Positions 12,868 to 60,543 of a stretch of DNA of 64,000 nt are shown in pieces (the first letter of the stretch is position 1; the number at the start of each line of letters is the position of its first letter). The notes below the pieces were generated by a model, which searched no databases, was not told the DNA's origin, and worked only from the letters and a program-made list of their open reading frames with translations. The DNA is taken from NCBI RefSeq assembly GCF_000236685.1, contig NC_016633.1:1984001-2048000 (forward strand), given 5' to 3'. The position numbers and the translations under genes were made by a program. Origin of the DNA: Sphaerochaeta pleomorpha str. Grapes. Its GTDB lineage: Bacteria > Spirochaetota > Spirochaetia > Sphaerochaetales > Sphaerochaetaceae.

Positions 12868-13680
12868 ATGAATCGCATTGTAGTTGTAGAAGATTCGCTT
12901 CTGCTTAGGAAAGGTATCATCTATACCACAGACTGGAAAAAGCTCAATTGCGAAGTTGTGGGGGAAGCTGACAATGGCTATGGAGGCTGTGCTGTCATCG
13001 AAGAACTTCAACCTGATATCGTGATCACAGATATCAGGATGCCGGGAATCGACGGGATCAAAATGATTGAGAATTTGCAGGGGAAAACAAACGCAATGTT
13101 TGTAATCATCACTGCATTCAATGAATTCGAATATGCTTGCAAGGCCCTGAAAATGGGAGTTGTGGACTACCTTTCAAAACCAATAGATGATGTGGAATTC
13201 TATTCTGTCATGAAACAGACGTGCGAGAAGGTCGAAAAAATAAAGCAATATGAAAAACTCCAAAACCAGCTTGATATGATGGAAGACAGTCGAATCATGT
13301 TTTTCAAGGAATATATGGCAGGGGATCAATCTCCTCAGGGAAACTATGTGCAGGCGGCAGTCCAGTTTATAAAAGAGAACTACCAGAAGGATATAGGAAT
13401 ACGAGAGATAGCAGAAAACCTTACCATAAGCGAAAGCCGCCTGAGCCATGTATTCAAGCAGAATACTGGCTATACCCTAGGCGATTACATCCAGAATTTT
13501 CGCATGAAGCAGGCTTGCCTCCTACTTTCCGACCCTACAGTAAAAGTATATGAGGTAGCGGGTCAGGTTGGGTTCAAGGACCAGAGGTATTTCAGTGTTA
13601 TGTTCAAAAAACTGGTGGGATTGTCCCCAAGGGAGTTTCAGAACACGTTCACAAAGCTGGAAGGAGATATCGATGCATGA
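12868..13680 (+). CDS. YesN-type response regulator with AraC DNA-binding domain
   Basis: A 270-aa protein with an N-terminal receiver domain (VVVEDS, phospho-acceptor D55 in VITDIRMPGIDG, K in YLSKPID) and a C-terminal AraC-type double helix-turn-helix. The latter spans residues ~165-265 (IREIAENLTISESRLSHVFK and VAGQVGFKDQRYFSVMFKK). It lacks the long linker usual in YesN proteins, which makes it compact. It begins 10 bp after the kinase gene and overlaps the next gene by 8 bp. It probably controls the importer operon; I could not identify its binding site. Confidence 0.92.
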   Translation: MNRIVVVEDSLLLRKGIIYTTDWKKLNCEVVGEADNGYGGCAVIEELQPDIVITDIRMPGIDGIKMIENLQGKTNAMFVIITAFNEFEYACKALKMGVVDYLSKPIDDVEFYSVMKQTCEKVEKIKQYEKLQNQLDMMEDSRIMFFKEYMAGDQSPQGNYVQAAVQFIKENYQKDIGIREIAENLTISESRLSHVFKQNTGYTLGDYIQNFRMKQACLLLSDPTVKVYEVAGQVGFKDQRYFSVMFKKLVGLSPREFQNTFTKLEGDIDA

Positions 13681-14752
13681 AATAGATTGGAAACAGTTTT
13701 CTGCAATGACCATGATAGAAAAACCACTGCAAGAAAGGCTTTCGGCGTGGTTTGATTTTCTGAAAAGCGAAACGGGAATAGTAACTATCCTTGAACAGGG
13801 AGAGTTGGCAATAACACAACAAGCAGAGAAAGAAGCTGCGCTTTGCATCAAACAGGGGTGCTCCCTAGTCGAGCAAGAAAACCAGTCTTTGTTCCCCTTG
13901 GTCTTCCTTGCCTATGTCTTGCCAGCCTCCCTTGCGTTGTTTGCAGAGAAAAAAATCCCGGACATGATTGTCAAAGATACCTTTTCCGATGTCGGACGTT
14001 GGGTTGCCGCATATGGGAAAACACACCAAGGGGCTTATGGATTTGACCGATATTACTGGATCCTGCACCATTTCTGCGCACACCTTTTCCAAATCGGAAG
14101 ATTGCAATATGAGGTAGGGACGTTTGCTTTCCCGTACACCATCTATCGTTGTAAACAGGACAATTCGCTGGTTTGCCTTGCCGATAAAAACCTCCAGGTT
14201 AATGCTAGCGGCCATCTTTGCGGGACAAATGGAAACTATGCAGGAAAATGGGAAACCCTTTGGTCGGTACAAGGGGGAAGCCTTTTAGCCAACAGGGTAG
14301 ACCTGGAGACCGGGACGATAGTGCAAACACCCGTGCAGTTTTCCTATGATGACCTTGATTTGCTGGTTCAAAAAGGCTCGCCGGTTCTCCATCTCCATAT
14401 TAGCGAGGGGTCACCCCTTACCCCTGCAGAAGTAACGGAATCCATCAAGAAAGCCAAGACTTTCTTCTCTGACCTACACATCACTTTTAACGCTTTGCTG
14501 TGTGATTCCTGGTTGCTCGACCCAAACCTCTCGAAATTCCTGCCAGAAGAGGGAAATATCTGCTCATTCATGAGACGCTTCTCAAAGTTCCCGGTACTCC
14601 ATGAACATCCCCAGATTCTTGAACGGGTCTTGGGACCCCTTGCCCCTACCACAGGGTCTTCGCTGGGAAGACTTCTGATCGAATATCTGCAAAAAGGTGG
14701 TAGCGTCTACACTACAGGTGGGTTCCTTACCGAAGAGATGTTTATGCAATAG
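13673..14752 (+). CDS. Acyltransferase-like protein (NAT_N / GNAT-like C-terminal architecture)
   Basis: The start is ATG 13673, inside the regulator's stop region and behind GGAAGGAG; 359 aa. The N-terminal ~150 residues are helical. The C-terminal part resembles the GNAT-like C-terminal domain of bacterial 'acyltransferase domain-containing' proteins: QIGRLQYE, VLHLHISEGSPLTPAEVTES, FFSDLHITFNALLCDSWLL and SNI-like GNICSFMRRF. No signal peptide or membrane segment is present, so it is cytoplasmic. Translational coupling to a two-component regulator implies a role in processing the importer's substrate or in signalling. Family assignment is from recalled motifs; the substrate is unknown. Confidence 0.6.
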   Translation: MHEIDWKQFSAMTMIEKPLQERLSAWFDFLKSETGIVTILEQGELAITQQAEKEAALCIKQGCSLVEQENQSLFPLVFLAYVLPASLALFAEKKIPDMIVKDTFSDVGRWVAAYGKTHQGAYGFDRYYWILHHFCAHLFQIGRLQYEVGTFAFPYTIYRCKQDNSLVCLADKNLQVNASGHLCGTNGNYAGKWETLWSVQGGSLLANRVDLETGTIVQTPVQFSYDDLDLLVQKGSPVLHLHISEGSPLTPAEVTESIKKAKTFFSDLHITFNALLCDSWLLDPNLSKFLPEEGNICSFMRRFSKFPVLHEHPQILERVLGPLAPTTGSSLGRLLIEYLQKGGSVYTTGGFLTEEMFMQ

Positions 14753-14846
14753 ATATTCTATACTCAAAGCGAACATTCTATATTATTTTACAGGATAGAT
14801 GCATTTATTTATTTGTTTTATATGTAGTTATATTAATTTTTAAAGT

Positions 14847-14863
14847 AAAGAAACCGTTTCTTT
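14847..14863. promoter_or_regulatory. LacI-family-type operator palindrome
   Basis: AAAGAAACCGTTTCTTT is a 17-bp palindrome, perfect apart from its single central base. It has the central CG-flanked GAAAC/GTTTC form common to LacI-family operators. It lies about 107 bp upstream of the esterase start, in an AT-rich 217-bp gap, and a LacI-family gene is two genes downstream. Its role as that regulator's site is inference. Confidence 0.55.
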
Positions 14864-14969
14864 CCATCTTGCAAAACCTGTATATTTTGTAACTGGCTAT
14901 GCAAAATAACCTTCACATCCGAAGTTATACCTTGCACGCCAAACAATGTTATACTACCATGTATTTATT

Positions 14970-16043
14970 ATGGTTAATTACGATCTGTCTCCAAAGATGA
15001 AACGACTGGTGGCACTTCTCGATAGAGTTTCCCTAAACGATCCTGAAGACCTGACTCCAAAACGCATCCAAGAGATTAACGATATTTCGATTCCCAACAA
15101 TGCAGTTATGAGAAGGCTTCTTGGCAAGAAAGCCTCAAATATTGACAGCAAAACGTTTATCATACCTGTCACCGATGGGGTTGTTACCGGGTACTACTTT
15201 GAAAAGCGGGGAACCAGGGAACTTTCCGACCTTACTCCTTTGATTATTTTCTATCATGGGGGCGGTTGGGTATGGGGAAACATGAACCTGTATAACTTTT
15301 TCTGTGCCCGGCTCGCCGACATAACCCATGCCTCGGTGCTTTCCGTCGACTACCGGCTTGCCCCGAAATACAAGTTCCCCACGGCTGTCGAGGATTGCTA
15401 CGACACCCTTATCTGGGCAGCGGCGGGTTGCCGTTACTGGAAAACAGACCCCGACAGAATCTATCTGGTAGGAGACAGTGCAGGGGGAAACCTTGCCGCG
15501 GTGGTAAGCCGTCTGGCAAGGGACCGCAAAGGACCAGCCATTGCAGGACAGGTTCTTCTCTACCCGGTAACAGACGGACGGATGCGTACAACAAGTTACG
15601 CCAAATACAAGGACTCACCAACACTTACCGACAAGCAGATGGCGTTCTTTATCAACAACTACCAACGGGAACCCAAGGATATCCTAAACCCCAGCTTCTC
15701 ACCGCTTCTGGGCAAGGACCATTCCCGTTTACCCCAAACCCTTATTATCGGAGCTGAGTACGATCCCCTTCATGATGACGGGATGCTCTATGCAGATGCC
15801 TTGGCCTCGGCAGATACCCCTGTCAAATACCTTGAAGTGAAAAAGACAATCCACGGGTTTATCAACTATCCGAATGCAACAGGATCTGAAGAAACCGAAT
15901 GTGCACTTATTCAGTTCATCGGGGGCAGACCGGTACAACAAGTTGCGCTCATCACCCGTAGGGAATGGAACAAGGCAATGAAAAAAGAACTCCGAAATAT
16001 TAAGAAACAGAGCAAGTATCATATTTCGGCAGAGGTGCAATAG
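14970..16043 (+). CDS. Alpha/beta hydrolase, HSL-type esterase/lipase
   Basis: A 357-aa cytoplasmic esterase of the hormone-sensitive-lipase family. It shows the oxyanion-hole motif YHGGGWVWG, the nucleophile elbow VGDSAGGNLAA with the catalytic Ser, an acid in EYDPLHDDG and the catalytic His in TIHGFINYP. The best start is uncertain: ATG 14970 (MVNYDLSPKMKRL) looks natural, while an in-frame ATG at 14946 would add eight residues; neither has a clear ribosome site. It probably deacylates small esters. It precedes the LacI-controlled sugar importer and may remove acyl groups from imported glycosides. Confidence 0.85.
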   Translation: MVNYDLSPKMKRLVALLDRVSLNDPEDLTPKRIQEINDISIPNNAVMRRLLGKKASNIDSKTFIIPVTDGVVTGYYFEKRGTRELSDLTPLIIFYHGGGWVWGNMNLYNFFCARLADITHASVLSVDYRLAPKYKFPTAVEDCYDTLIWAAAGCRYWKTDPDRIYLVGDSAGGNLAAVVSRLARDRKGPAIAGQVLLYPVTDGRMRTTSYAKYKDSPTLTDKQMAFFINNYQREPKDILNPSFSPLLGKDHSRLPQTLIIGAEYDPLHDDGMLYADALASADTPVKYLEVKKTIHGFINYPNATGSEETECALIQFIGGRPVQQVALITRREWNKAMKKELRNIKKQSKYHISAEVQ

Positions 16044-16132
16044 ATTATCGTTAACCCTGTTTTACCCTAGATAATCCCGTCATTATCCCATCTTTACCTT
16101 GAAAATCACACTTTCCATGTTAACCTTAACCT

Positions 16133-17131
16133 GTGAGTATACTATTAAAAGATATTGCAGCGGCAACAGGCTTTTCAATTAACACAGTCTCCCGGGCGTT
16201 AAGGGGAGACCAGAAGATTTCTGCTGAATCACGAACCAAAATTCAAGAATCAGCAAAAATGCTCGGGTATATGCCTAACTCAATCGCTGCCAGTATGCGA
16301 TCAAACCATTCCAAGATGGTCGGTATCATTTCCGCAGATTCTGCAAACCCGTTTTTCAGTGAGGTTGTCCGAGGAATTGAGGAAATGGCAAGCAAGGCCG
16401 ATTATCATATACTCCTGGCCAGTACCGAAGAATCGATGCAGAAGGAATGCGACCTCATCAGGATGTTTCTCTGCCGGAAAGTCGATGGGATAATCTCAAT
16501 GCCCGTGTTTGACACCAATAGCAAACACCTCCAGCTCTACCAGGGACTCGATATCCCGTTCATTTTCCCGGGTCGACGCCTTGAGGGACTCGGGGGGCAC
16601 AGCATCCTGCACAATGACAGGGATGGACAACGGCAAGTCATCTCCCATTTCATTTCAAACGGCCATACAAAGATACTGTATATCGCAGGGCCAAAAAAAA
16701 TAAGCAATACTATCGACAGGCTTGCAGGACTTGCAGAAGCCTATTCAAACGCAGAGCTCGAGCTTGACCCTGACTATATCGTCGAAGCCTCAGGACATAT
16801 AGAGGATGGATATTATCTGACGAACCAAGCATTGAACAGGGGAATGGGGTTTACAGCCGTAGCCTGTTTTAATGATATGCTGGCCATGGGCGTGCTTAAA
16901 AGCCTCTATGAAAACAATTTGAGGGTTCCAGAGGATATTGAGGTCTTCGGTTATGACAATCTCTACATGTCACAGTTCATGCAACCGAGTCTCAGTACTG
17001 TTGATGTTCCTAAATATAGATTGGGGTACGTTGCAATGGAGACCCTGATCGAACACATCCAAGATCCGAGTCTGGAATATATAACAAAGGATTTTCCAAC
17101 GAGGTTGATTTTCAGGGAAACTACCCGTTAG
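16133..17131 (+). CDS. LacI family transcriptional regulator
   Basis: A 332-aa repressor starting at GTG 16133. The N-terminal helix-turn-helix is LLKDIAAATGFSINTVSRALRGD followed by the hinge helix region NSIAASMRSNHS. A periplasmic-binding-protein-like sugar-binding core follows (VGIISADSANPFFSEVVRGI, DGIISMPVF, ILYIAGP, VFGYDNLYMSQFMQPSLSTVD). No Shine-Dalgarno is visible before the GTG. It lies 42 bp upstream of a sugar-importer operon that it probably controls. A short dyad GTTAA-CC-TTAAC at 16119-16130 just before the gene could serve autoregulation. Confidence 0.93.
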   Translation: MSILLKDIAAATGFSINTVSRALRGDQKISAESRTKIQESAKMLGYMPNSIAASMRSNHSKMVGIISADSANPFFSEVVRGIEEMASKADYHILLASTEESMQKECDLIRMFLCRKVDGIISMPVFDTNSKHLQLYQGLDIPFIFPGRRLEGLGGHSILHNDRDGQRQVISHFISNGHTKILYIAGPKKISNTIDRLAGLAEAYSNAELELDPDYIVEASGHIEDGYYLTNQALNRGMGFTAVACFNDMLAMGVLKSLYENNLRVPEDIEVFGYDNLYMSQFMQPSLSTVDVPKYRLGYVAMETLIEHIQDPSLEYITKDFPTRLIFRETTR

Positions 17132-17173
17132 GAAAAAATATGTCAACTGTGTGTCTTAATAAGGAGGATCCAC

Positions 17174-18439
17174 ATGAGAAAGAACATTCTGTTGGTTGTG
17201 TTGGTGGCGTTGCTTGCCTCAAACATGTTGTTTGCACAAGCTGCACCCGAACAAAAAAAAGCGGAAGGACCTATAGAAATCACATTCTGGTCTTTATTCA
17301 CCGGAGGGGATGGAGAATTCTTTGACGCTATGGTCAAGCAATTCAATGCATCCCAAGATAAAATCATCATGAAGAATGACATGGTCAAGTTTGACAATTA
17401 TTACACCAAACTAACCACTGCCCTTGCAGCAAAGACAGCTCCTGATGTTGTAGTCGTACACCAAGGCAATTTGCTCAACTATGTTCCAAGCGGTTCATTG
17501 CTTGCCTTGGATGGCCTCTTTGACGAAGCCACGCTTGCAGATTTCCAGAAAGCACCCTTGGATGGATGCCGCTTCGAAGGAAAGCTTTATTCGATTCCGT
17601 TTGATGTACATCCTATAGTTATGTACTATAACAAGGATTTGCTTGCAAAAGCTGGCATTACAACAATACCCCAGAGTGGGGAGGATTTGGTAAAGGCAGC
17701 CATCGCAGTGAAGAATGCTACAGGAAAGTGGGGATTTGCTATAGACAATACGACAGGAACCTATAAAGCGTATACGCTGACCAGATTGTTCATGTCTTTG
17801 ATTGCACAGCAAGGGGGAAGCCTCCTCAACGCCGATAGCACTGCACCGAATTTCAATAATGCATATGGTCAAAATGCTTTGAAATGGCTGCAGGACCTAG
17901 TCAACGTCTATAAAGTAAACCCGACCGAACTCGATTATGATGGTGCCATGAATACGTTCAAGCTTGGCGATGCGGCCTTCTACTTCAATGGTGTCTGGGC
18001 AACAGGAACCCTTGAGAACCAGGCAGGTTTGAACTTCGGAGCCGCTCCGCTTCCTGCAATCATGGGCGGAAAGGCTGCTTGGGCTGGATCTCACACACTT
18101 GCTATCCCGGTACAGAAAAACCAAGATCCTAAAAAAGTCGAGGCTGCTGTAACCTTTATCAAGTGGATGACTGCCAATGGTGAACTCTGGGCAAAGGCAG
18201 GGCATATTCCTACCAGAAAGAGCGTTGCAGAGAAAGCTACCTTCAAGGCTTTGCCTTACAGGGCAGATTACGCAGCAGCCGCTGCATTTGCCTTGCCTAC
18301 TCCCAGAACTGCTGCCTGGGAAGAAATCTATGGGACGCTCAGTGACAAACTGGAGTATGCGGTGACCAAGAACCAGAATACCACCCAGGCTCTTGCCGAT
18401 ATGGAAAAAACGGTAAAAGACATTATCGCAACCTATTGA
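17174..18439 (+). CDS. Carbohydrate ABC transporter substrate-binding protein (MalE/UgpB-like)
   Basis: A 421-aa family-1 solute-binding protein with a strong AAGGAGG ribosome site. The signal peptide (LLVVLVALLASNMLFAQA) leads into EITFWSLFTGGDGEFFDAMVKQFN, typical of oligosaccharide-binding proteins. Further landmarks are PDVVVVHQGNLLNYV, YSIPFDVHPIVMYYNKDLL and AWAGSHTLAIPVQKN. It has no lipobox cysteine. It feeds the two permeases encoded next. A GC-rich hairpin after the gene probably raises its level relative to the membrane parts. The sugar is unknown. Confidence 0.93.
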   Translation: MRKNILLVVLVALLASNMLFAQAAPEQKKAEGPIEITFWSLFTGGDGEFFDAMVKQFNASQDKIIMKNDMVKFDNYYTKLTTALAAKTAPDVVVVHQGNLLNYVPSGSLLALDGLFDEATLADFQKAPLDGCRFEGKLYSIPFDVHPIVMYYNKDLLAKAGITTIPQSGEDLVKAAIAVKNATGKWGFAIDNTTGTYKAYTLTRLFMSLIAQQGGSLLNADSTAPNFNNAYGQNALKWLQDLVNVYKVNPTELDYDGAMNTFKLGDAAFYFNGVWATGTLENQAGLNFGAAPLPAIMGGKAAWAGSHTLAIPVQKNQDPKKVEAAVTFIKWMTANGELWAKAGHIPTRKSVAEKATFKALPYRADYAAAAAFALPTPRTAAWEEIYGTLSDKLEYAVTKNQNTTQALADMEKTVKDIIATY

Positions 18440-18458
18440 TTTGCATTTCAGTATTTCC

Positions 18459-18488
18459 CCCTCCCCTGCCTGAGGGGAGGGAATTTTT
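18459..18488 (+). terminator. Attenuator-like terminator after the binding-protein gene
   Basis: CCCTCCCC (18459-18466), a 7-nt loop and GGGGAGGG (18474-18481) are followed by AATTTTT. It looks like a full rho-independent terminator, yet the permease gene starts 16 bp later with its own GGAGG. This fits partial termination between binding protein and permeases. Confidence 0.8.
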
Positions 18489-18503
18489 GGAGGCACGTAT
18501 ACC

Positions 18504-19376
18504 ATGATACCCGGAAACAAAGACAACAGAGATGGAATTCTTTTCTCACTTCCATTCCTACTCGTATATTTCGCCTTTATGGTATATCCATTGCTGTATG
18601 GGTTTTATATAAGTTTTTTCAATTGGGACATTCTCTCAACGGCAAAATTTATTGGTTTGAAGAACTACTCTACCCTTTTTTCCGATGTAAAATTCTACAC
18701 CTCACTCTGGCATACCCTTCAGTTTGTACTCATTACTACGCCAAGCTTACTTTTGGTCGGGTTTATAATGGCTCTGGCAGTCACTTCAAAGTCACCTTTG
18801 ACCAGAATCATGGAAAACGCATTCTTCTTTCCCTATATTTTCTCAATGACTGTTGTCAGCACGCTATGGGCATGGATCATGCAAAAGGATTTCGGGATAT
18901 TCAACCAGGCATTGATGGCGATGGGAAGACAACCTATCAGCTGGCTGACCAACGAAAACTTTGCTATGTGGTCGGTAGCCTTGACGACCCTCTGGTGGAC
19001 TGCAGGATTCAATATGGTCCTGTTTAGCGCCGGTATCAAGCAAATTCCCAAGGAAGTCTTTGAATCGGCAGCAATAGACGGTGCGAACTATTTTCAGAGA
19101 ATCACCTATATTACCGTTCCTTTGGTGTCTTCCACGACGGTGCTTTGCCTAATCCTCCAGATTATTGCTTCTTTCAATGTATTCGGCCAAGTCTATGTAA
19201 TGACCGGGGGAGGTCCACATGGAACTACAAGGGTGCTGGTACAGTATATCTATGAGACAGGGTTCAAATATTACAAAATGGGATATAGCGCAGCTATGAG
19301 CTACATCCTATTCGCAATCATCATGGTTGTATCAGTTGTCCAATACCTGACACTCACCAGGAGGGAACAGGTATGA
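18504..19376 (+). CDS. Carbohydrate ABC transporter permease (MalF/UgpA-like)
   Basis: A 290-aa inner-membrane permease with six hydrophobic segments and the transport signature EVFESAAIDGANYFQRITYITVP near residue 190, which contacts the ATPase. It has a GGAGG ribosome site. It overlaps the following permease by 4 bp. No ATPase is encoded in this operon, so the complex must use a shared MsiK/UgpC-type ATPase from elsewhere in the genome. Confidence 0.94.
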   Translation: MIPGNKDNRDGILFSLPFLLVYFAFMVYPLLYGFYISFFNWDILSTAKFIGLKNYSTLFSDVKFYTSLWHTLQFVLITTPSLLLVGFIMALAVTSKSPLTRIMENAFFFPYIFSMTVVSTLWAWIMQKDFGIFNQALMAMGRQPISWLTNENFAMWSVALTTLWWTAGFNMVLFSAGIKQIPKEVFESAAIDGANYFQRITYITVPLVSSTTVLCLILQIIASFNVFGQVYVMTGGGPHGTTRVLVQYIYETGFKYYKMGYSAAMSYILFAIIMVVSVVQYLTLTRREQV

Positions 19377-20200
19377 AAAGACATCCTTTGAAACAAAAGA
19401 CAGGAATCACGATTCTTTCCCTGCTATTCATAGCTATTTGGTTTTTCCCTCTTATATGGATGGTCATAACCTCCATGAAATTGGAAAATGAAGTCATTAC
19501 CAAGACGTTCTCCTTTTTCCCGGCTAATCCAACCTTTGCAAACTATACCAAGGCATTTACCTCAACCTATATCCTCAACTGGATGGTCAATTCTGCAATT
19601 GTTTCCTTGGGGGCCATGGTCCTTACCCTTATCATCGATGCCCCAATTGCCTATGCGTTTGCAAAAATCCAGTTCAAGGGCAAGAACCTGCTTTTCTGGA
19701 TTGTCATGGGAGGAATGATGGTTCCCTTCCAGGTTCTCATAGTCCCGCTCTATCTGCAATTCAATTCCTATGGGATGATCAATACACTAGCCTCTGTAGT
19801 TCTACCCCGCATTGCTCTTCCCATAGGGATATTTATTCTCAAACAATTTTATGAAGGAATCCCTGTCGACTTGGAAGAGGCAGCCTTTATAGATGGGTCT
19901 TCTCGGTTGAGAATATTCCTACGAATTATCCTTCCCTTGGGGCAGTCAGCTATGGCTACGGTAATCATTCTGTCATTCATAAACACTTGGAATGATTTCC
20001 TTTGGCCGCTTATCGCAATCAATGATACTATTAAGTATACGATCACTGTCGGAATAGCGAACTTCCAGGGAACCCATGGAACCCAGTATTCCTTGATTAT
20101 GGCAGGGGCTACCATAGCATCCATCCCCCAGATACTTTTCTATATCTTTTTTAGGAAAAAAATTATCGCAGGCATCGCAACTAGCGGAATGAAAGGTTAA
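19373..20200 (+). CDS. Carbohydrate ABC transporter permease (MalG/UgpE-like)
   Basis: A 275-aa partner permease with six membrane helices. Its ATPase-contact motif is LEEAAFIDGSSRLRIFLRIILP near residue 165, and it has the typical MalG-type ending (GIATSGMKG). Its ATG overlaps the stop of the MalF-like gene (ATGA), so the two are produced in equal amounts. Only 4 bp separate it from the next gene, which is therefore in the same operon. Confidence 0.94.
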   Translation: MKRHPLKQKTGITILSLLFIAIWFFPLIWMVITSMKLENEVITKTFSFFPANPTFANYTKAFTSTYILNWMVNSAIVSLGAMVLTLIIDAPIAYAFAKIQFKGKNLLFWIVMGGMMVPFQVLIVPLYLQFNSYGMINTLASVVLPRIALPIGIFILKQFYEGIPVDLEEAAFIDGSSRLRIFLRIILPLGQSAMATVIILSFINTWNDFLWPLIAINDTIKYTITVGIANFQGTHGTQYSLIMAGATIASIPQILFYIFFRKKIIAGIATSGMKG

Positions 20201-20204
20201 TACC

Positions 20205-22256
20205 ATGCATATACAATCAATCGGAAACGATAAGATCGAAGTGACCCTGGAAGAACCAACCTGTATCATTTCCTACAGCCTCAGTTACGGGGGAAGTCGA
20301 ATCCACTGTTCCTCATTGGATATTTCTCCCGATCAAAACAGTGTTTCTGCCAGTTTTGGGGAGATTGGCACCATTACTGACGTATTTACTTCTGCAAAAG
20401 GATTGCTTACTGTCGAACGAACCTGGAATCTGTTGATAAAAGGGGACTACAGGCTACAGGCTTCGTTTTCCTACCGCGATGGAAACCTTGAGAACAAATT
20501 GCTGGTCCCTTCTGTATGGTATCGTGACAATACCCAAGGGAAAGGTGTATTTCCCTCATCTCACTATGCAAACGTATGGTCGTTTTTGGAAACAAGGATT
20601 CCCGTACCCTGTTGTGAGCAACTATTCAATGGGAACCGATGTTTCACCTGTGCAACTGAAAAAGCATCCGAAGAACAATTCCTAGCTTCAGTGACCAATG
20701 AACGCCACGGGATTATCATCTCAATTCCCGGAAGTGAATGGCCTTATAGCTACCAAGGGAAAAAATCCTTGATCGATACTTCAAAGGTTTTGCTTCCAAG
20801 ACTTAAAATCGATGAGGTTCCCTTCACCTATAAGCGAAAATTCTATGTGCATAACCAAGCGGAGAATGATAGCCTGGATGGTTATCGAGCTTTTGTCCGG
20901 GTCCTTCCAAAAGAATTGGCCCTGGGCAAAGGGGCATTAATGCCCTGGGAAACCTGGTACGAATACAAGCTCACCCGTCTGCTCAACCTCATACGAAAAG
21001 ATAGCAGAGGCTTGGCCTATCTGGCGATGGGTGCAGGAAACGGAGAAGTACAGCAAGTATATGAATATACCGCTGCATCTTTTTTAGTCAAAAGTCTTGA
21101 GGCTGCCTATGAATTGGCAGTATGCACACAAAGGGAGTGTAAAACAGAATTTCTCAATCAAGCGAGAAAGGATGTTGCACTCCTATTCGGCCTAGACAAT
21201 GACCTGATGCTTTTTGCCAACCTTGCAATCAAGATAGGTCAGTTCTTTCTCGATGCAGAACATCCCGGCGGGGTATTTCAGGATTGTTATGATTTGCAGG
21301 AGCATATCTGGGGTGGCTATCTTGGCATAGGGGAACATGAGGAGTTCCGTTATCTGGTAAACAGCCGTTGCAACGGGGAAGCCATGCGATATTATGTGCT
21401 GCTCTACTCACAGCTAAAGGCCAAGGGAATCGACAAACCCCAGTTCCTCGGCATTGCGAAAAGAGTAGCCAGGTTCTATTGCAACTGTCAGCTTTCCAGT
21501 GGTTCTTTCGGTCGCTGGTGGACTACAAAAGGAAAACCTGTAGATATACAAGGGACCAACGGGGCATATATCGCCTCGTTTTTCGCTACACTCGTTCCCT
21601 ACCTCGATAGTGCAGAACCGCTTCATAGTGAAATCCTTGCCGCCCTTCACCAGTCCTACTGGTATTATGGGGAAATGGCGAATGAGGGTAGCTTCTATGG
21701 GGACACCCTGGATGCAGATTCTTGCGACAAAGAAGCAGGGGTTGCCTTGCTTTCCCTGTTTCTTGATCTCTATGAGCTGGAAAAGGACAAACGCCAGCTG
21801 GAAAGTGCCCGCCTTGCCGCCAATTTCATTCTTTTATGGATATGGCAGACTGATAGTTTCATCCCTTTGGAGAGCCCTTTGGGGAAAGAGGGTTTCCACA
21901 CTACAGGCATGACCTCTGTATCGGTAGCCCACCACCATCTCGATTTCTATGGCATGGCCATCGCATTCCAGTTCCTTAGGCTCTCAGAAGCCACAGGAGA
22001 TCTTTTCTATCAGGAGCAGGCCATTCTTATGGTCAATGCCTGTCGCCAACTCATAGCTACAAAAGACAACGGGCTTGGAAGAGATGCCAGCTTTATCGGC
22101 TGGCAACCGGAACAAATCAATCATACCTGTTGGGAATATTTTGACCGGAAAGAAAAAATGAATGGCTTCTATGAAATTGATATAGCTTGGGTTACCGTAC
22201 TTACACTTGGCTCTTATTTGCAGATCCAAGAAAGATTTCCCCAAATATTGCAATAA
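20205..22256 (+). CDS. Unrecognised 683-aa protein, probably an alpha/alpha-barrel carbohydrate-active enzyme
   Basis: I cannot assign this to a named family. The N-terminal ~230 residues look beta-rich (a possible sandwich domain, e.g. ITDVFTSAKGLLTVERTWNL). Residues ~260-680 are helical with repeated aromatic, Gly- and acid-rich turns (GGVFQDCYDLQEHIWGGYLG, SSGSFGRWWTTKG, GSFYGDTLDADSCDKEAG, HTTGMTSVSVAHHHLDFYG). This layout is typical of alpha/alpha-toroid glycosidases and lyases. The Asp/Glu in GDTLDADSCDKEAG are candidate catalytic residues. There is no signal peptide, so it acts in the cytoplasm, presumably on the sugar brought in by the importer encoded 4 bp upstream. AAAGG precedes the ATG. 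Confidence 0.6.
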   Translation: MHIQSIGNDKIEVTLEEPTCIISYSLSYGGSRIHCSSLDISPDQNSVSASFGEIGTITDVFTSAKGLLTVERTWNLLIKGDYRLQASFSYRDGNLENKLLVPSVWYRDNTQGKGVFPSSHYANVWSFLETRIPVPCCEQLFNGNRCFTCATEKASEEQFLASVTNERHGIIISIPGSEWPYSYQGKKSLIDTSKVLLPRLKIDEVPFTYKRKFYVHNQAENDSLDGYRAFVRVLPKELALGKGALMPWETWYEYKLTRLLNLIRKDSRGLAYLAMGAGNGEVQQVYEYTAASFLVKSLEAAYELAVCTQRECKTEFLNQARKDVALLFGLDNDLMLFANLAIKIGQFFLDAEHPGGVFQDCYDLQEHIWGGYLGIGEHEEFRYLVNSRCNGEAMRYYVLLYSQLKAKGIDKPQFLGIAKRVARFYCNCQLSSGSFGRWWTTKGKPVDIQGTNGAYIASFFATLVPYLDSAEPLHSEILAALHQSYWYYGEMANEGSFYGDTLDADSCDKEAGVALLSLFLDLYELEKDKRQLESARLAANFILLWIWQTDSFIPLESPLGKEGFHTTGMTSVSVAHHHLDFYGMAIAFQFLRLSEATGDLFYQEQAILMVNACRQLIATKDNGLGRDASFIGWQPEQINHTCWEYFDRKEKMNGFYEIDIAWVTVLTLGSYLQIQERFPQILQ

Positions 22257-22270
22257 AGAAGGTTAGTATC

Positions 22271-23008
22271 ATGGAACGCATAAGCCTAATAACATTGAAT
22301 CTTTGGAATACTGAACATTGGGAAAAACGTAAAGAATGTGTCATCTCTTTTGTGCTGAAATACGCAAGTGATATTTTCTGTTTCCAGGAAGTCAGGGAAG
22401 AAACCCTGGCTGTTTTGGACCAAGCATTACCCAGATATACACGAATCGAAGGAGTCGAGCCAGGGTGGAAATGCGAAAACAGCATATATATACGGAGTGA
22501 CCTATTCACCGTACAGGATTTCGGAAGGATAGACCTTTCCATGCCAGAGCAAAACAGAGGGGTGTTCTGGGTAAAGCTCAAGACCCTTGAGGGCAAAACG
22601 CTGTTTGTAGCAACAATGCATCTTACCCATCAATTGAATGCAGATGAGATTCGAACGGGGGTTCCCTACAGGCATGCTGAGGCCCATATGGCAGCAAAGG
22701 AATTGAATCTCCTGGTAAAAGGGGAACGGGCCATTGTCTGCGGGGATTTCAACGACCCGGTACATCCTTCCAGAATTCTCCAACAGGAAGCGCAATTCGT
22801 AGATGTCTTCGAATTTCTTCGTCTCTGTGCCCCGGTGACCTTTCCCTGCCCATTTCTGAGCGAGGAACGATATCTTGTTGAGGCAATTGACAAAATCATG
22901 ACTCGAGGACCGCTCAAACCACTATTGGCTACCTCCCCGCAGTACTTCCATAACGGGAGCGTCCTCTCAGACCATTGGCCGGTAATGGCAATCTTTGAAA
23001 TCGAGTAA
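22271..23008 (+). CDS. Endonuclease/exonuclease/phosphatase (EEP) superfamily hydrolase
   Basis: ATG 22271 starts a 245-aa protein, 14 bp after the previous stop. EEP motifs are in order: LNLWNTEHWEKR (metal-site Asn), FQEVREE (metal-binding Glu), MHLTHQLNADE, CGDFNDPVH (catalytic Asp/Asn) and SDHWPVMAIFEIE (catalytic Asp-His). The family covers DNA repair nucleases, sphingomyelinases and sugar- or inositol-phosphatases. With no signal peptide and sugar-transport neighbours, a phosphodiesterase or phosphatase on an imported glycoside is plausible, but that is inference. Its stop lies 5 bp from that of the convergent SGNH gene. Confidence 0.85.
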   Translation: MERISLITLNLWNTEHWEKRKECVISFVLKYASDIFCFQEVREETLAVLDQALPRYTRIEGVEPGWKCENSIYIRSDLFTVQDFGRIDLSMPEQNRGVFWVKLKTLEGKTLFVATMHLTHQLNADEIRTGVPYRHAEAHMAAKELNLLVKGERAIVCGDFNDPVHPSRILQQEAQFVDVFEFLRLCAPVTFPCPFLSEERYLVEAIDKIMTRGPLKPLLATSPQYFHNGSVLSDHWPVMAIFEIE

Positions 23009-23013
23009 GAGAG

Positions 23014-23841
23014 TTAGTCGCCCTTTTTCTTCGAGAACCCCGGGATTCTGAAAGTAAGCCCCCTATGGGCTTTTTTTCCCTGTGGTTCGATAGGTGCTAT
23101 CTGCAGGGAAGTGATAGACTCTTCTTCGGCAGAAGGAATCTCCAGGGTCTCGATTTCTTGTTCCGATTCACTTTCAGGGAGTTCTTCTTCCAAGAAAAGC
23201 TGTCGCTCATCACCAAATAGCTGTTGCAGGATTGGAACGAGAGCCTTTGCCAGATTCTCATGGCCTTGTGCATCCATATGAAGCTGGTCAATGGTACTGG
23301 GACTCGCAACCAAAGACGCATCGAGAAACAAACAACCATACGACTGGGCTACCTGCTCGAATAAGGGAGCCAAAGCCAGGCTTTTCCTATAGGAACTTTG
23401 GTCAAAGCTGACAAAGGGTGAATGTTCTATATCCGCTCCAATATGAATGGGGGAGATGACAAGTACCTTGGGAAGGGGATACCCTTCTCCATACGGAAAT
23501 TGCAAGATTGTCTTTACCAAGGTTTCCATACCTTTGGCAATAACCCGTGCATTTGCATTGAAATGTACCTTACAATCGTTGGTACCCAGACTTAAAATCA
23601 CCAAGTCTAGGGGTTTGTGACTTTTCAATGACACCGGCAATAGGGCCAAACCATTCCGACCAGGTTCCAAAGGATCATCAAAAAGCGTATTTCTCCCCCC
23701 CAATCCTTCTTCTATGAGGTAATAATCACTTCCCAGATAATCCTGTAGAAGACCCGTCCACCGAACAGTGCGAGCCCATCGACCTCCACTGGGGTTTGTC
23801 CCAAACGTATTAGAATCACCAAAGCAAAGAATGTTATACAT
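23014..23841 (-). CDS. SGNH/GDSL hydrolase
   Basis: I place the start at ATG 23841, behind GAGAGGG, giving 275 aa. The SGNH blocks are all visible: block I ILCFGDSNTFGTNP (Ser), block II Gly in EEGLGGRNT, block III LSLGTNDCK (Asn) and block V STIDQLHMDAQGHENLA (Asp-x-x-His). It is like small arylesterases and acyl-carbohydrate esterases. A ~75-residue C-terminal tail is unusual: very acidic (EEELPESESEQEIETLE) and then basic (GKKAHRG...FSKKKGD). There is no signal peptide. It is the last gene of the minus-strand cluster and could remove ester groups from the imported glycoside. Confidence 0.88.
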   Translation of the reverse strand: MYNILCFGDSNTFGTNPSGGRWARTVRWTGLLQDYLGSDYYLIEEGLGGRNTLFDDPLEPGRNGLALLPVSLKSHKPLDLVILSLGTNDCKVHFNANARVIAKGMETLVKTILQFPYGEGYPLPKVLVISPIHIGADIEHSPFVSFDQSSYRKSLALAPLFEQVAQSYGCLFLDASLVASPSTIDQLHMDAQGHENLAKALVPILQQLFGDERQLFLEEELPESESEQEIETLEIPSAEEESITSLQIAPIEPQGKKAHRGLTFRIPGFSKKKGD

Positions 23842-23968
23842 GCATACCCTCTCTCGTACAGTCTCACAGATTTTACCCAGCAAAGTCCCTTTGTACAACA
23901 CGATTCGCAACAGATAGTTCCTAGCTTGGAGGTATACCTGACAATACTGCTTTTGTGACTTTTATCTG

Positions 23969-25732
23969 TTAAAAAGGCTTGGTTTTCAAAAGTTGTACCT
24001 GATAGGGGTTTAGCACCAGTTCCTTTGCTGTAATGGTTATAGGTTTTTCCAAAAGATCGATACAAGCATCAAAGGGGAACGGGCAATCCAATTTGCTCCA
24101 GACTTCTTCAATCGAAATCCTCTGTAAATGGGGAGTAACATTTATGAGAACAAGGATTTTATCGGAATCATCAGAGGATCCTCTCAGAAATACAAAACAA
24201 GCAGAATTCGTCAGGGCTAAGATTCTTTGCTCAGAGGAAGGGGAAAAAGCAGGTTCCCTTTTTCTGACCCGAAGCAATTCCACATGAAAACCAAGGACAG
24301 CACTTCTCAAAGAATTGGGATCATCCAATTCCTTTGACAAGGTTTTAAAGGATACCTTCTCTCTATTAATCCTTCGAGGATACAAAGTAAGCTCAGGATC
24401 CCCATACCAATTCTGCGAACCTATCAGACTATTGATATAGATTCCGGGTATCCCCTTGAGAAAAACCATGATCGCAGTCGCTGCCTTGAATCGGGAAACC
24501 AGCAGGGAACGAGGTTCGTTCTCGGTAAAACCAGAAAGGGCGGATAGATAATTGATATTCAATTCGTACGGACTTTCCGTTCCATCACCTTTGCTTCTGC
24601 GTGAGACAAATCCTCCTTGTTTGACAGTATGCAAACACATTTTTTCAACATCCCCATCGGAAAGGAGGTTTTTCACTGGCATCAGTCCAATCCCATCATG
24701 AGAAGCAAGAAAATTAAAGAATGCAACGGAAGAAGAAGGGAGCACAAGCGTCTTGGCCCAAGCACCTAAAACCGAAGCATCCTGGGAAAGAAAGGTGTGG
24801 AAAACAAGGGGGGGCAGGGAAAAGTTGTATACCAGGGTAGCCTCATCACTACCGTCTCCAAAATATGCTACGTTTTCGTTATGGGGAACATTGGTTTCGG
24901 TAATAATAAAACTTTGCTTGGTAAGGTTCTTGGTCAGCCAACAGAAAAGCCTGACTATAGCGTGGGTCTTTTCATGATGGATACAATTCGTTCCTATTTC
25001 TTTCCATAGGTAAGCCACGGCATCAAGCCGAATAATCGAGGCACCCCTCTGCAATACATAAGCAAGCAGAACATCCATCATACAGTACAGAACCTCAGGG
25101 TTATGATAATTGACATCCACCTGGTCTTTGCTGAAGGTAGTCCAGACATACCGTTTTCCCCTATCGGTGTCGACTTGGGTTATCAGGGGTAGATTCCTAG
25201 GCCTGAACACCTGCGTGAGATCTTCAGTTCCCTCGAGAAAAATTGCAAAATCCTTATATTCGGGATTACCTGCAAAACATTCCCTGATCCAGATATTCGA
25301 ACGGGAAAGATGGTTTGCAACGAAATCAAACATAAGTGCATAAAAAGCTTGCAAATCATTGATATGATCCCAGGTTCCCAGTCCTGTATCGACCGAAAAG
25401 GGGTCAATGACAGAAAACCCATCATCAGAGGATGAGGGATAAAAAGGAAGCAGATGAATAGTTGAAACAGCATCGCCAACCCATTTTCTCAAGAATTCGT
25501 GCAACACAACTAGAGGAGCACAATGGGGACTCTGTATTGAATCCCCATAGGTTATCAATAGAGAATAATGTTTTTCCAACCTCGAGGCAGGATGATTTAT
25601 AAAGCTATTATCTTTTGGCAGGTATTTTTTAATACATAGGAAAAACCTATTTGTCCAAGTTTTGGCAACCTGCTTACCGTAAATTTCCTCAAGACTGCTA
25701 CGAATACCGTTTTTGAGGGAGGCTTCATTCAT
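23969..25732 (-). CDS. GH13_18 glycoside phosphorylase (sucrose / glucosylglycerate phosphorylase-like)
   Basis: ATG 25732 behind GAGGT gives 587 aa. A GH13 barrel is evident: HLLPFYPSSSDDGFSVIDP, MFDFVANHLS, nucleophile D237 in IIRLDAVAYLWK, acid/base E279 in IITETNVPHNENVAYFG, and stabiliser D346 in LASHDGIGL. The TETNVPH-type acid/base segment is, as I recall, shared with the YcjM (glucosylglycerate phosphorylase) branch of GH13_18 rather than classical sucrose phosphorylases. Such enzymes cleave an alpha-glucoside with phosphate to glucose-1-phosphate, saving ATP. It is cytoplasmic and downstream of a GT4 gene and a sugar importer. The exact acceptor remains open. Confidence 0.85.
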   Translation of the reverse strand: MNEASLKNGIRSSLEEIYGKQVAKTWTNRFFLCIKKYLPKDNSFINHPASRLEKHYSLLITYGDSIQSPHCAPLVVLHEFLRKWVGDAVSTIHLLPFYPSSSDDGFSVIDPFSVDTGLGTWDHINDLQAFYALMFDFVANHLSRSNIWIRECFAGNPEYKDFAIFLEGTEDLTQVFRPRNLPLITQVDTDRGKRYVWTTFSKDQVDVNYHNPEVLYCMMDVLLAYVLQRGASIIRLDAVAYLWKEIGTNCIHHEKTHAIVRLFCWLTKNLTKQSFIITETNVPHNENVAYFGDGSDEATLVYNFSLPPLVFHTFLSQDASVLGAWAKTLVLPSSSVAFFNFLASHDGIGLMPVKNLLSDGDVEKMCLHTVKQGGFVSRRSKGDGTESPYELNINYLSALSGFTENEPRSLLVSRFKAATAIMVFLKGIPGIYINSLIGSQNWYGDPELTLYPRRINREKVSFKTLSKELDDPNSLRSAVLGFHVELLRVRKREPAFSPSSEQRILALTNSACFVFLRGSSDDSDKILVLINVTPHLQRISIEEVWSKLDCPFPFDACIDLLEKPITITAKELVLNPYQVQLLKTKPF

Positions 25733-25797
25733 TTTATTACCTCGTTTCAAGAATCCATGGGATTCCTCTCAGGCGATAATGCAAATACAGGAAACCC

Positions 25798-27225
25798 CTA
25801 AGGGATTGCATTAGGACCAGAACCTTTTTTTTCATTGCTCCAAAGCTCAAGGTACGGTTCCAGAAACCTGCGCAAGGCTTCAAGTGAAAATTGTCTCTGT
25901 GCAATCTCGAAATTCATCTCAACCATATGGGTTCTATATTTTCTATCAAACAACACCTCTGCCATCTGTTTCGATGCCCTTTTCAGTCGTGAGATCTTCA
26001 CCGAGGCCAGCCCATCTGCCGGGGAAAATTCGACAGTATCACCCAGAGAGATAGTCAAAAACCCTTGTGGACGAATATCTTTTTTATATACAGGGTATTC
26101 AAACAAGACAATGGGTAATTTTGCCTGGACCGCCTCCAGAAACTGATTTCCCCACCCTTCCCAGTAGGAAGGGTACGAAACAAGGTCTGCATGGACATAG
26201 GAATCCCAAAGGGAATAGGTTTTTCTGTTGTTTATCTGATGTCTCCTGGAAGAAATCCTATCTCCGATATGAATCATCTCAACTCCCATTTGCTTTGCTT
26301 TTTCCACCAAACGCGAAAAATAGAAATACTGGTCATCTTTCAAATCCCCGGCAAGCAGCAGGACTATCCTGCTTTTTTGGGAAAACCTCTTTCCGTTGTA
26401 CAAACGCCTACCGATAAACTCTTTCTTCTTGGTTGCAAGACAGGCCACCACGTCAATCGCAAGCTCTATCCCTTTTCTGGGAATAATCCGGGTTGCCTGA
26501 AGAATAACAATATCATTTGGATTAATACCAAAGGACTGCCGAAAATCAGCATTGAAATCATCGACAACCCAAGGGGCCTGGTAAAAATCAAAGACATTGG
26601 GAATTACAGCAGCCTCTATCCCTTTTCGTTTTGCAAGCACATCACAGGTGAGTCTATTAATTACAACATGGGAATACCCCTTGGTATGGGGGGGAATAAA
26701 GCAATCGACAATCTCCATCGCTGTCTTACAGGTCATCCCAAGCCCAATGACACGCTCCCAGTAGAAATCATGTTCATGGGAAAGAATCGAAAGATGATGC
26801 CCCTGAATGGCTAAACTGAGGGCAATGGCAGCCGCAGGATGCAACCCTACAGACCAGACATTCTCAACAATGATTACATCGAGAAGGTTGTTTTCTATCC
26901 ACTCATCCAACTTCCCTTTTATACCTTCGGCACTTTGAAACAGGGCTTCCCTGTATTTTGCTTCATCACCGAAGGGCAACAAAGAATGAAAGGTTGCTTT
27001 ATCGAGGTCCCGGGACAAAGGAAGATGATAAGAGAGCTCCTCTATGATAGTGATGTTTGAAAAAGAACTATAGGGGGATTTTTCCCCACTGCATAAAAAC
27101 ACCGAATGCCCAGCATTTTCCAGTACTTGTTTCCATTTTTCCATTTCCAAAGAAACCCCGTCTGTCCCAAATATCTCAAAATGGAGCATTCCAATCCTTA
27201 ATGGCTCTTTTCCCCCTTCACTCAT
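25798..27225 (-). CDS. GT4 family glycosyltransferase
   Basis: A 475-aa cytoplasmic glycosyltransferase with a GT-B layout. The N-terminal domain starts LRIGMLHFEIFGTDGVSLEMEKWKQVLENAGHSV, where GTDGVSLEM is the glycine-rich acceptor loop. The C-terminal donor domain contains VILQATRIIPRKGIELAIDV and YPSYWEGWGNQFLEAVQAKLPIVLFEYPVY, whose E-x7-E-type region binds the nucleotide sugar. The start overlaps the upstream permease stop by 4 bp. The loop resembles GT4 enzymes of the mannosylglucosylglycerate type, but this is a weak recollection. Its presence in a transport and phosphorylase operon is unusual, since it makes rather than breaks glycosidic bonds. Confidence 0.8.
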   Translation of the reverse strand: MSEGGKEPLRIGMLHFEIFGTDGVSLEMEKWKQVLENAGHSVFLCSGEKSPYSSFSNITIIEELSYHLPLSRDLDKATFHSLLPFGDEAKYREALFQSAEGIKGKLDEWIENNLLDVIIVENVWSVGLHPAAAIALSLAIQGHHLSILSHEHDFYWERVIGLGMTCKTAMEIVDCFIPPHTKGYSHVVINRLTCDVLAKRKGIEAAVIPNVFDFYQAPWVVDDFNADFRQSFGINPNDIVILQATRIIPRKGIELAIDVVACLATKKKEFIGRRLYNGKRFSQKSRIVLLLAGDLKDDQYFYFSRLVEKAKQMGVEMIHIGDRISSRRHQINNRKTYSLWDSYVHADLVSYPSYWEGWGNQFLEAVQAKLPIVLFEYPVYKKDIRPQGFLTISLGDTVEFSPADGLASVKISRLKRASKQMAEVLFDRKYRTHMVEMNFEIAQRQFSLEALRRFLEPYLELWSNEKKGSGPNAIP

Positions 27226-28184
27226 TCTTTCACCCCCCCTGCGGCTAAACCGCTGGTAAGGTTTTTCTGTATTGCCATGAACAGAACCATAACAGGGACT
27301 GCAGTCAGCATTGAAGCAGCCATGATCCTATCCCAGATAGCGTTTTTCGATACAAACAGAGTTTTCAATCCTATCGGCAGGGTATAGAGTCCTTTGAAAC
27401 TTTTCAAAAAAACCGAAGCAAACATATATTCATTCCACGCTATCATGAAACAATAGATAAATACCGTAAAGATAGCCGAAAGTGAAAGAGGAATGATAAT
27501 CCTAACCAGTGTCCCAAACCTGCTCAATCCTTCGATCAAGGCAGCTTCCTCAATGGAAAAGGGAATCGTGCGAAAATAATTCCCCAACATATAGAGTGAA
27601 ACGGGAAGTGTCTGTACCACATAGACAATAATAAGGCTTCCCATAGTCCCTGCCGGGGAGCTGAGCAATCCCACCATGGCAAAAATGCGATACAGGGGGA
27701 TCAACAAAAGGATGCCACCGAACATGTAGACAAACAAAACCCCCCGCTGAATAACCGAACGACCGATGAATTTCAAACGGCTGAATGCATAGGCCCCCAG
27801 GATGGCCAGACAAACAGAAACGAAAGAGGCAAGCATGGCAACAAATACCGAGTTCCTGAAATACGTAAGGAATGGAAAAACATCCCCTGTGTCCTGATAC
27901 TTCGCCACAATTGCCTTCTTCTGTGCAGCTGAAAGTTGAGGGGATTCCTCAAGCAGTGTTCGCACGGAATCGGGGACAGCCTTCAAGTCACTGCCTATGT
28001 TGAGCAATTCCTTATAGGCTTCCAGATTCACCAAAGAAGGGATCAAAGAAGGATTTCCCCATTCCCAGGGATATTTCAACGACAGGGAAAGCATCTGGGC
28101 AAAGGGAAAAAGGCAAAAGAACACAATGGACAGGACAAGGAGCAAAAAGAGCAGGCTTTTTAGGAAATTCTTTCTCTTTACCAT
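27222..28184 (-). CDS. Carbohydrate ABC transporter permease (MalG-like, with extended periplasmic loop)
   Basis: A 320-aa inner-membrane permease with the contact motif IEEAALIEGLSRFGTLVRIIIP near residue 210 and a MalG-type C-terminus (GLAAGGVKE). Compared with the 275-aa MalG-like paralogue at 19373-20200 it has about 45 extra residues. These lie between the first and second membrane helices (roughly residues 40-110, GSDLKAVPDSVRTLLEESPQ). The loop is polar and periplasmic and may contact the binding protein. It overlaps both its upstream partner (7 bp) and the downstream GT4 gene (4 bp). Confidence 0.93.
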   Translation of the reverse strand: MVKRKNFLKSLLFLLLVLSIVFFCLFPFAQMLSLSLKYPWEWGNPSLIPSLVNLEAYKELLNIGSDLKAVPDSVRTLLEESPQLSAAQKKAIVAKYQDTGDVFPFLTYFRNSVFVAMLASFVSVCLAILGAYAFSRLKFIGRSVIQRGVLFVYMFGGILLLIPLYRIFAMVGLLSSPAGTMGSLIIVYVVQTLPVSLYMLGNYFRTIPFSIEEAALIEGLSRFGTLVRIIIPLSLSAIFTVFIYCFMIAWNEYMFASVFLKSFKGLYTLPIGLKTLFVSKNAIWDRIMAASMLTAVPVMVLFMAIQKNLTSGLAAGGVKE

Positions 28185-29092
28185 TTGAGGACCTTCTTTA
28201 CATAAAACAAGATAAATCCTATCAATAAAACAAATTGGATTACTGCCAAGGTTGCTCCTTGGCTTAGATCCATTGTCCCTGTAAATGCTTTGAGATATGT
28301 ATATACGGAGAAAACCTTCACATTGCTGCTGAGCAGGTAGACCTCATCGAATTTGTTAAAATTCCAAATAACCCTAAGCAGGATAAGGGCATTTACTACA
28401 AAATAGATTTCAGGCAGAGTAATTGCCTTGAATTGCTGCCATCCGTTTGCGCCATCTACTTCCGCTGCCTCATAGAGATTCTGGTCGATGGCCTGCAGAC
28501 GCGAAAGCACCATAAGATAGGTAAAAGGAAAGTTTTTCCATACACTAAAAAGAATTGCAGCCCATACAGCGGTCTTGGGATCACCGACTACATTCATACG
28601 TTGGGAAAACCAGCCAAGCTTGGAATAGAACACATCCATGAACACCCCGTTTACCGGGTCAAACACAAACTGCCACGCAAAAACAACGGAAATGACAGGG
28701 GCAACATAGGGTAATAAGACAATGCTCCTTACAAGACCACGCAAGGGAAATTTCTTATTCAGCGTCAATGCAACAATAATGCCAAGCAACGTGGTACCGA
28801 TGGTCGTACAGGTTACATAGAGGATAGTCGTACCCAAGGCGTACAAAAATTCCTTGTCCTGCAATACCTGAAGGTAATTAGAGAACCCCACAAACGTACG
28901 TTCCCCGGTAAGATCGAAATCAAAAAGGCTCAAATAGCAATTATAGAGAACCGGATAGAGAATAAGAACCACGATGATGAGTGCAGAGGGAAGAACCAAG
29001 GCCCAACCCAAATGCTGTTCCTGTTGGGCCCTGGTCAGGTATCTCTGTCTTTTCATCGTTTCGGCATCACGTGTGCCTGTTCTTCGAATCAT
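28178..29092 (-). CDS. Carbohydrate ABC transporter permease (MalF-like)
   Basis: I choose ATG 29092 (MIRRTGTRD), preceded by AGAGG, giving 304 aa; an in-frame ATG at 29122 lacks a ribosome site. There are six membrane helices, with the ATPase-contact motif NLYEAAEVDGANGWQQFKAITLP near residue 205. It lies 33 bp after the binding-protein gene and overlaps the MalG-like gene by 7 bp. No ATPase gene is present in the cluster. Confidence 0.93.
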   Translation of the reverse strand: MIRRTGTRDAETMKRQRYLTRAQQEQHLGWALVLPSALIIVVLILYPVLYNCYLSLFDFDLTGERTFVGFSNYLQVLQDKEFLYALGTTILYVTCTTIGTTLLGIIVALTLNKKFPLRGLVRSIVLLPYVAPVISVVFAWQFVFDPVNGVFMDVFYSKLGWFSQRMNVVGDPKTAVWAAILFSVWKNFPFTYLMVLSRLQAIDQNLYEAAEVDGANGWQQFKAITLPEIYFVVNALILLRVIWNFNKFDEVYLLSSNVKVFSVYTYLKAFTGTMDLSQGATLAVIQFVLLIGFILFYVKKVLKW

Positions 29093-29125
29093 TGAGAAAC
29101 CTCTGGAGAAAACCCCTGCCATCGA

Positions 29126-30502: not shown

Positions 30503-30941
30503 TTGATTTCTCCTTGCATCATCTAAGAAGGGAGAAGAATTTTTGGATAGAGAAACATCCAAAAAACATTTTAGCTGCACATAATTCTATTCTCCAAAAG
30601 TGTTAAAAGTCAATGCAACCAAATTATGCCCACAAATTTCAGCGGTGCAGGTATAAAAAAAATCCAATATCCATACTAGCAGAGGCAACAGGTAAACTAT
30701 GGGTTTAGGCCCAAAAGTAGGCTTGAAATATAATATGTAAATATTCTTATTAAAATATATATTGTATAATTATTAAGTATTTTTGCTTATTAATAATACT
30801 GTTTTCACATTATTTTCGCTTTATACTCCAGAAACTCCCTATTTTTTAGAAAAAACTAACTCATCCCTTGACGCCCATTTCTATCTGGCCTATATTTGTC
30901 TTAAGCAATATTTGCTAGTGAGAATTATATGGGAGTATCAA
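30503..30941. other. 439-bp AT-rich divergent intergenic region
   Basis: This gap separates the minus-strand sugar-importer operon from the plus-strand MarR/CoA-disulfide-reductase genes, so it must hold divergent promoters. It is conspicuously AT-rich between about 30720 and 30800. I see no convincing -35/-10 pair, operator dyad, RNA gene or coding sequence. A short open frame from 30783 is only the upstream extension of the MarR frame. Confidence 0.6.
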
Positions 30942-60364: not shown

Positions 60365-60543
60365 ATTGTTCTGTCTCCTTTTCATCGGAAGAAAGTCATT
60401 GCTCTTTCGAAGGCAGGGTAAACCCACAACAACAATCTGTCAACTTATTTTCATTAACGAAACCGCAATATTTTTCTACAATTTTTGATGCATGTATCAA
60501 TAAATTTAAAAATTTCTGTTTTTATGCACAAAAAAACAAAAAA

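Follow-up and report, generated by a model that had tools for sequence, protein, structure and literature searches.

Among carbohydrate enzymes, a beta supersandwich followed by an (alpha/alpha)6 barrel is the architecture of the GH94 phosphorylases, the bacterial glucoamylase of GH15 and the PL27 L-rhamnose-alpha-1,4-D-glucuronate lyase (BACCELL_00875, PDB 5no8). Enzymes with this type of barrel differ in their catalytic residues: lyases of the (alpha/alpha)6-type fold normally use a tyrosine or a histidine, the catalytic base of GH15 is a glutamate in the loop that leads into the last inner helix, and catalysis by AGE enzymes, which to our knowledge lack an N-terminal supersandwich, relies on two histidines. 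The former family GH154 was a supposed glycosidase family that turned out to hold dehydratases with a Tyr/Arg/Asn active site; its PUL-linked uronate dehydratases (BcGDH), which have conserved arginines, had first been taken for glycosidases (PMC12269599).

The locus described here lies in a window of 64,000 nucleotides (NC_016633.1, 1,984,001–2,048,000; all positions below refer to the window) of the 3.59-Mb, single-contig genome of Sphaerochaeta pleomorpha str. Grapes, the nearest relatives of which are Sphaerochaeta genomes. Positions 16133–23008 form a tight operon on the forward strand, coding for a LacI-family regulator (16133–17131, 332 aa, Pfam LacI and Peripla_BP_3), a MalE-type sugar-binding protein with a signal peptide (SBP; 17174–18439, 421 aa, Pfam SBP_bac_8/1), two ABC permeases overlapping by 4 nt (18504–19376 and 19373–20200, both Pfam BPD_transp_1), an unclassified enzyme of 683 aa in which no signal peptide was seen (20205–22256; hereafter X), and a hydrolase of the endonuclease/exonuclease/phosphatase superfamily (EEP; 22268–23008, 246 aa, Pfam Exo_endo_phos). 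The gap between the end of permease 2 and the start of X is 4 nt, as the initial annotation had it, and its other gene positions were matched by the ORF coordinates, with Pfam upholding the LacI, SBP, permease and EEP identities. For the EEP protein, the match to PF03372 scored 47.8 bits (gathering cut-off 24.5) and the superfamily motifs FQEV, GDFND and SDHW were present; its start should be the ATG at 22268, which is preceded by AGAAGG and lies 11 nt past the stop codon of X, in preference to the TTG at 22187. In the intergenic region between the SBP and permease genes, a 9-bp GC-rich stem-loop (18459–18481, a consensus match alone) may act as an attenuator.

The regions upstream of lacI share the palindrome RGRTTAACGTTAAYCY near position -91 and a weaker copy at -16, and this conserved operator pair supports the initial description of the importer as LacI-controlled. 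In S. pleomorpha the operator O1, AGATTATCGTTAACCC (16042–16057, forward strand), lies 91 nt before lacI and has one mismatch to the palindrome, while the weaker O2, ATGTTAACCTTAACCT (16117–16132, forward strand), abuts the lacI start; O1 is kept in most orthologous loci at about -76 to -93, and O2 is found at -16 in most loci. O1 was the best match in the whole genome and the sole site there with one mismatch, and sites with up to three mismatches occurred in just 1.5% of random 210-bp window segments. The operon has the attributes of a LacI-controlled carbohydrate ABC operon, namely DNA-binding and ligand domains together with a palindromic operator with a central CG at the promoter. The two operators are 75 bp apart, about seven helical turns, a spacing that would suit looping by a LacI tetramer. 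In 21 of 138 genomes of the bacterial family a perfect operator was present as one site per genome, and in the genomes checked it sat at the expected position upstream of X; one of the 21 genomes (G070) had no X match. Since there is a single perfect operator per genome, the regulator looks dedicated to the X operon and no other operon need be invoked, and a search for a wider LacI regulon in the S. pleomorpha genome returned eight sites with up to two mismatches versus nine in the reversed control.

The arrangement of LacI, importer and X is a conserved unit that recurs in other spirochaetes and is not due to chance. In the 35 X loci for which 4.5 kb or more of upstream sequence was available, genes for LacI (26), SBP (25), permease 1 (23) and permease 2 (26) were found near X, compared with 12 loci for EEP and six for an esterase, and of the 29 loci in which X adjoins permease 2, 25 had X starting between -4 and +7 nt from the end of the permease gene. 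Loci without the importer were mostly from non-spirochaetes and Brevinematales, plus a few others. In Dehalococcoidia X lies beside genes for an FGGY kinase, an aldolase and a sugar MFS transporter (MFS_2), and distant relatives of X were encoded beside GH43, GH88, GH130, GH2 and SusCD-type genes in several cases in Bacteroidota, beside GH28 and GH78 genes in Streptomyces, and beside an ABC importer and an FGGY kinase in Deinococcus. Between species (L053–L057, L060), X (59–61% identity) and EEP (60–68%) have diverged faster than LacI, SBP and the permeases (76–87%). In another locus (L082), a protein whose start resembles, by eye, a 4-alpha-glucanotransferase is encoded directly 5' of X.

Searches with X gave no match in Pfam (E ≤ 1) or NCBIfam, in line with its initial placement outside the recognised glycosidase families, and nothing beyond chance among PDB sequences. 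Searches of Pfam, NCBIfam and PDB with a narrow (A2) and a broad (A3) profile and with distant relatives likewise identified no family, the best PDB profile match being to a short barrel stretch of 4mu9 (E = 0.0016). In the literature we found no paper on X, on the S. pleomorpha locus tags or naming the X family, and no known activity was found among its members. X is present as a single copy in its own genome, in 40 of 139 genomes of the bacterial family and in 20 of 393 sampled genomes of the phylum. A contig scan yielded 43 X loci, mostly from spirochaetes including Brevinematales, together with Chloroflexota/Dehalococcoidia and Myxococcota, and a plasmid protein search added distant relatives from Streptomyces, Nonomuraea, Deinococcus, Catenovulum, Segatella and Bacteroides finegoldii, which are annotated as 'hypothetical protein' or not at all. 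The A2 profile recovered the distant members tested with E-values of 6e-16 to 8e-41, none of the matches listed being a reversed or shuffled decoy, and in a Segatella member both domains matched. The family has the signature [ST]TLDA[DN]xxDKEA ... GxxPE and no Pfam or NCBIfam entry. The Bacteroidota relatives start, as judged by eye, with hydrophobic leader sequences. One Myxococcota homologue (L132) contains a single in-frame TAG, for which a pseudogene, an assembly error and recoding are candidate explanations.

The AlphaFold2 model of X (pLDDT 91.6, pTM 0.93) consists of a mutarotase-like beta supersandwich (residues 1–222) and an (alpha/alpha)6 barrel with six inner and six outer helices (residues about 240–683), which bears out an earlier guess of an alpha/alpha barrel and reproduces the domain types and order of GH94, GH15 and PL27 enzymes. 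Foldseek ranked PL27 first (E = 7.6e-10, TM 0.39), followed by GH94, GH116, cellobiose 2-epimerase and GH63, and VIA aligned the barrel with many (alpha/alpha)6 enzymes (GH76, MmpH, cellobiose 2-epimerase, UGL) at Z-scores of 23–27, tied in part. The N-domain modelled alone (pLDDT 92.5) matched the supersandwiches of GH31, GH36, GH38, GH94, bacterial glucoamylase (GH15) and PL26 (Z 10.6–13.8), with Z about 10.6–11.5 to GH94-type enzymes and 10.8 to 1lf6. A shared fold by itself shows no function. Each inner helix is preceded by a long conserved loop, and judging from the secondary structure the active site is expected at these loops. The structure-based searches matched (alpha/alpha)6 carbohydrate enzymes, and neither they nor the Pfam, NCBIfam and PDB comparisons led to a clear assignment of X to a characterised GH or PL family.

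Several families were considered individually, of which GH15 and GH127 were rejected. GH15 came into question because of the PEQ motif of X, which places a glutamate in the loop leading into the last inner helix, just as in GH15, and hhalign gave a probability of 0.1% and no sequence relationship. With the GH127 beta-L-arabinofuranosidases, hhalign detected weak barrel similarity when the broad alignment was used (82–93%, reversed and shuffled controls below 1%), which was absent with the narrow alignment. There is no invariant cysteine in the broad alignment, and the narrow one has C613 as its single conserved cysteine, in conflict with the Cys/Glu metal site of GH127; moreover, X did not match the GH127 Pfam entry PF07944, for which the best distant relative scored 24.0 bits (cut-off 24.9), and the domain order of GH127 differs from that of X. 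Profile searches with X gave no match to the former GH154 in the PDB copy used, from which its solved members may be absent.

In a broad alignment of 17 diverse members of the X family, R131, P135, R388, D508, E510, E636 and several glycines and tryptophans were invariant in all 17, and no tyrosine or histidine was; some distant members lack H578 and Y582 or have other residues in their place. R131 (codon 20595–20597) is located in a supersandwich loop (E-x-R-x-x-x-P), R388 (codon 21366–21368) where the second inner helix begins, D508 and E510 in the motif DTLDADSCDKEAG (residues 500–512, 21702–21740) before inner helix 4, and E636 in the motif WQPEQINH (residues 633–640, 22101–22124) in the loop before inner helix 6. 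D508, E510 and E636 are the sole invariant residues fit for carboxylate acid/base chemistry. These invariant carboxylates, together with the lack of an invariant Tyr or His, favour, rather than prove, hydrolysis by carboxylate chemistry as against a lyase or epimerase reaction, and X is most likely an exo-acting glycoside hydrolase that works in the cytosol and represents an undescribed family.

On balance, we lean towards a dedicated uptake-and-processing operon, in which an imported oligosaccharide or glycoside would be cleaved in the cytosol by X, probably acting as an exo-glycoside hydrolase. LacI would repress the operon by binding both operators at its own promoter, and this repression would be lifted by an inducer, for which the imported sugar or something made from it is the probable candidate. 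The SBP and the two permeases, powered by an ATPase encoded elsewhere, would bring in the intact compound, which X would then cut in a pocket at the mouth of the barrel, with loops from the N-terminal supersandwich closing it off. Candidates for the acid/base residues are D508 or E510, facing E636 on the opposite side, and R131 and R388 may be binding or charge-stabilising residues. EEP could be an optional helper, perhaps taking a phosphate group off a subset of substrates; it is missing from most X operons, which places it outside the core.

It is unlikely that X is instead a lyase or uronate dehydratase, which would remove a proton next to a carboxylate and cleave or dehydrate a uronic-acid oligosaccharide, with R131 and R388 neutralising the carboxylate. 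The two invariant arginines would suit such chemistry, the PL26 and PL33 sandwiches also match the N-domain of X, one distant homologue was clustered with GH88 and another with GH28, and the GH154 precedent warns that a supposed glycosidase family such as that of X can hold dehydratases. The PL27 lyase, as the top full-length Foldseek match, aligned with X over 486 residues in VIA (Z 27), but the rmsd was 7.5, the identity 9–11% and the overall superposition poor (TM about 0.4), and although X has the sandwich and barrel, phmmer and profile searches gave no match to the 5no8 chain, which is present in the PDB, at E ≤ 10. X also differs from PL27 in its invariant carboxylates and in having no signal peptide, and its invariant Asp and Glu set it apart from the Tyr/Arg/Asn site of the former GH154 enzymes. 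The variable H578 and Y582 speak against a lyase as well, and no unsaturated-uronate hydrolase was seen beside X in the partly annotated neighbourhoods of the spirochaete operons.

Still less probable is a GH94-like glycoside phosphorylase that uses inorganic phosphate and releases a sugar 1-phosphate in the cytosol. The GH94 cellobiose phosphorylases were the next-best full-length Foldseek matches (E = 7e-8), X is probably cytosolic behind an ABC importer, and the invariant arginines could bind phosphate, but TM-scores between X and GH94 were just 0.2–0.3, no sequence relationship was found, and the presence of at least two invariant carboxylates points rather to hydrolysis, since inverting phosphorylases use a single acid.

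From the esterase, the barrel enzyme and EEP, the initial annotation had suggested an esterified or phosphodiester-linked glycan; that the whole neighbourhood, including a GDSL/SGNH hydrolase, degrades such a glycan we consider improbable. The hormone-sensitive-lipase-type esterase (14946–16043, forward strand, Pfam Abhydrolase_3) is an optional neighbour, as is EEP (6 and 12 of the 35 loci, respectively), which leaves the idea unsupported, and O1 overlaps its stop codon, so that the esterase gene lies upstream of the regulated promoter. The GDSL/SGNH gene (23014–23910) is on the reverse strand, converging on EEP, and its place is kept in L054, L055, L057 and L060. On the other hand, several Sphaerochaeta loci keep the esterase and GDSL genes in synteny, an esterase gene is found directly 5' of X in a locus without the importer (L058), and the EEP subfamily is a rare one that hardly occurs outside X operons (2 of 247 sampled genomes of the phylum), its neighbours elsewhere giving no hint of a substrate. 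A near-palindrome, AAGAAACCGTTTCTT, which is unlike the O1 motif, was found upstream of the esterase gene (14752–14945), and the esterase may have its own regulator.

Finally, a sugar 2-epimerase or isomerase of the AGE/YihS type, converting the imported sugar without cleavage, is very improbable, because X has one well-conserved histidine, H578, which is itself missing in some distant members, instead of the two required for AGE catalysis, and carries invariant residues in its N-terminal supersandwich, even though AGE-type enzymes align with the barrel at Z 23–26, tied with other barrels; membership in this family was therefore rejected.

The SBP offers a direct route to the substrate of X, as its ligand, once found, would point to it. 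The nearest solved relatives of the SBP (8art, CMMBP 7bvt, Lmo0181 5f7v and TmMalE3) bind mostly alpha-gluco-oligosaccharides. Key stacking residues appear to differ, with Trp204 of CMMBP apparently not conserved in the alignment, and an alpha-glucan substrate is therefore not claimed. As judged by Pfam, NCBIfam and PDB comparison, X is a reasonable candidate for a CAZy family that is new, though of known fold; the earlier proposal of a new carbohydrate-active family is plausible, while conservation lends no support to an esterified or phosphodiester-linked substrate. We suggest, more tentatively and with less than even confidence, that this family spans at least seven phyla, is apparently secreted in Bacteroidota and cytosolic behind a dedicated importer in spirochaetes, and attacks a linkage without a known enzyme. 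Annotated only as 'hypothetical protein', the X family turns up repeatedly in loci for glycan use in bacteria from gut, soil and sea, and its spirochaete form should be unusually easy to decode: at its smallest it comprises a single regulator, importer and enzyme, its operator has been mapped, and a genome has one such operon.

Several other genes in the window were noted. A reverse-strand cluster (23969–30580) combines an SBP and two permeases with a glycosyltransferase, which reached 371 of the 640 bits set as cut-off for mannosylglucosylglycerate synthase, and with a GH13 protein that resembles sucrose phosphorylase but scores under the cut-off of that family; the cluster is possibly involved in glucosylglycerate-type solute metabolism. 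A GNAT_C/NAT_N acyltransferase-like protein (13676–14749) is encoded between a response regulator and the esterase, and two ORFs (34203–35171, 322 aa, and 3570–5762, 730 aa) had no NCBIfam match. A 1074-aa protein (60313–63537) showed partial PEP-synthase-like matches (residues about 550–740) and no full-length family, and an 834-aa protein (31320–33824) combines a CoA-disulfide-reductase-like N-terminal part with a C-terminal DsrE2-like sulfur carrier domain.
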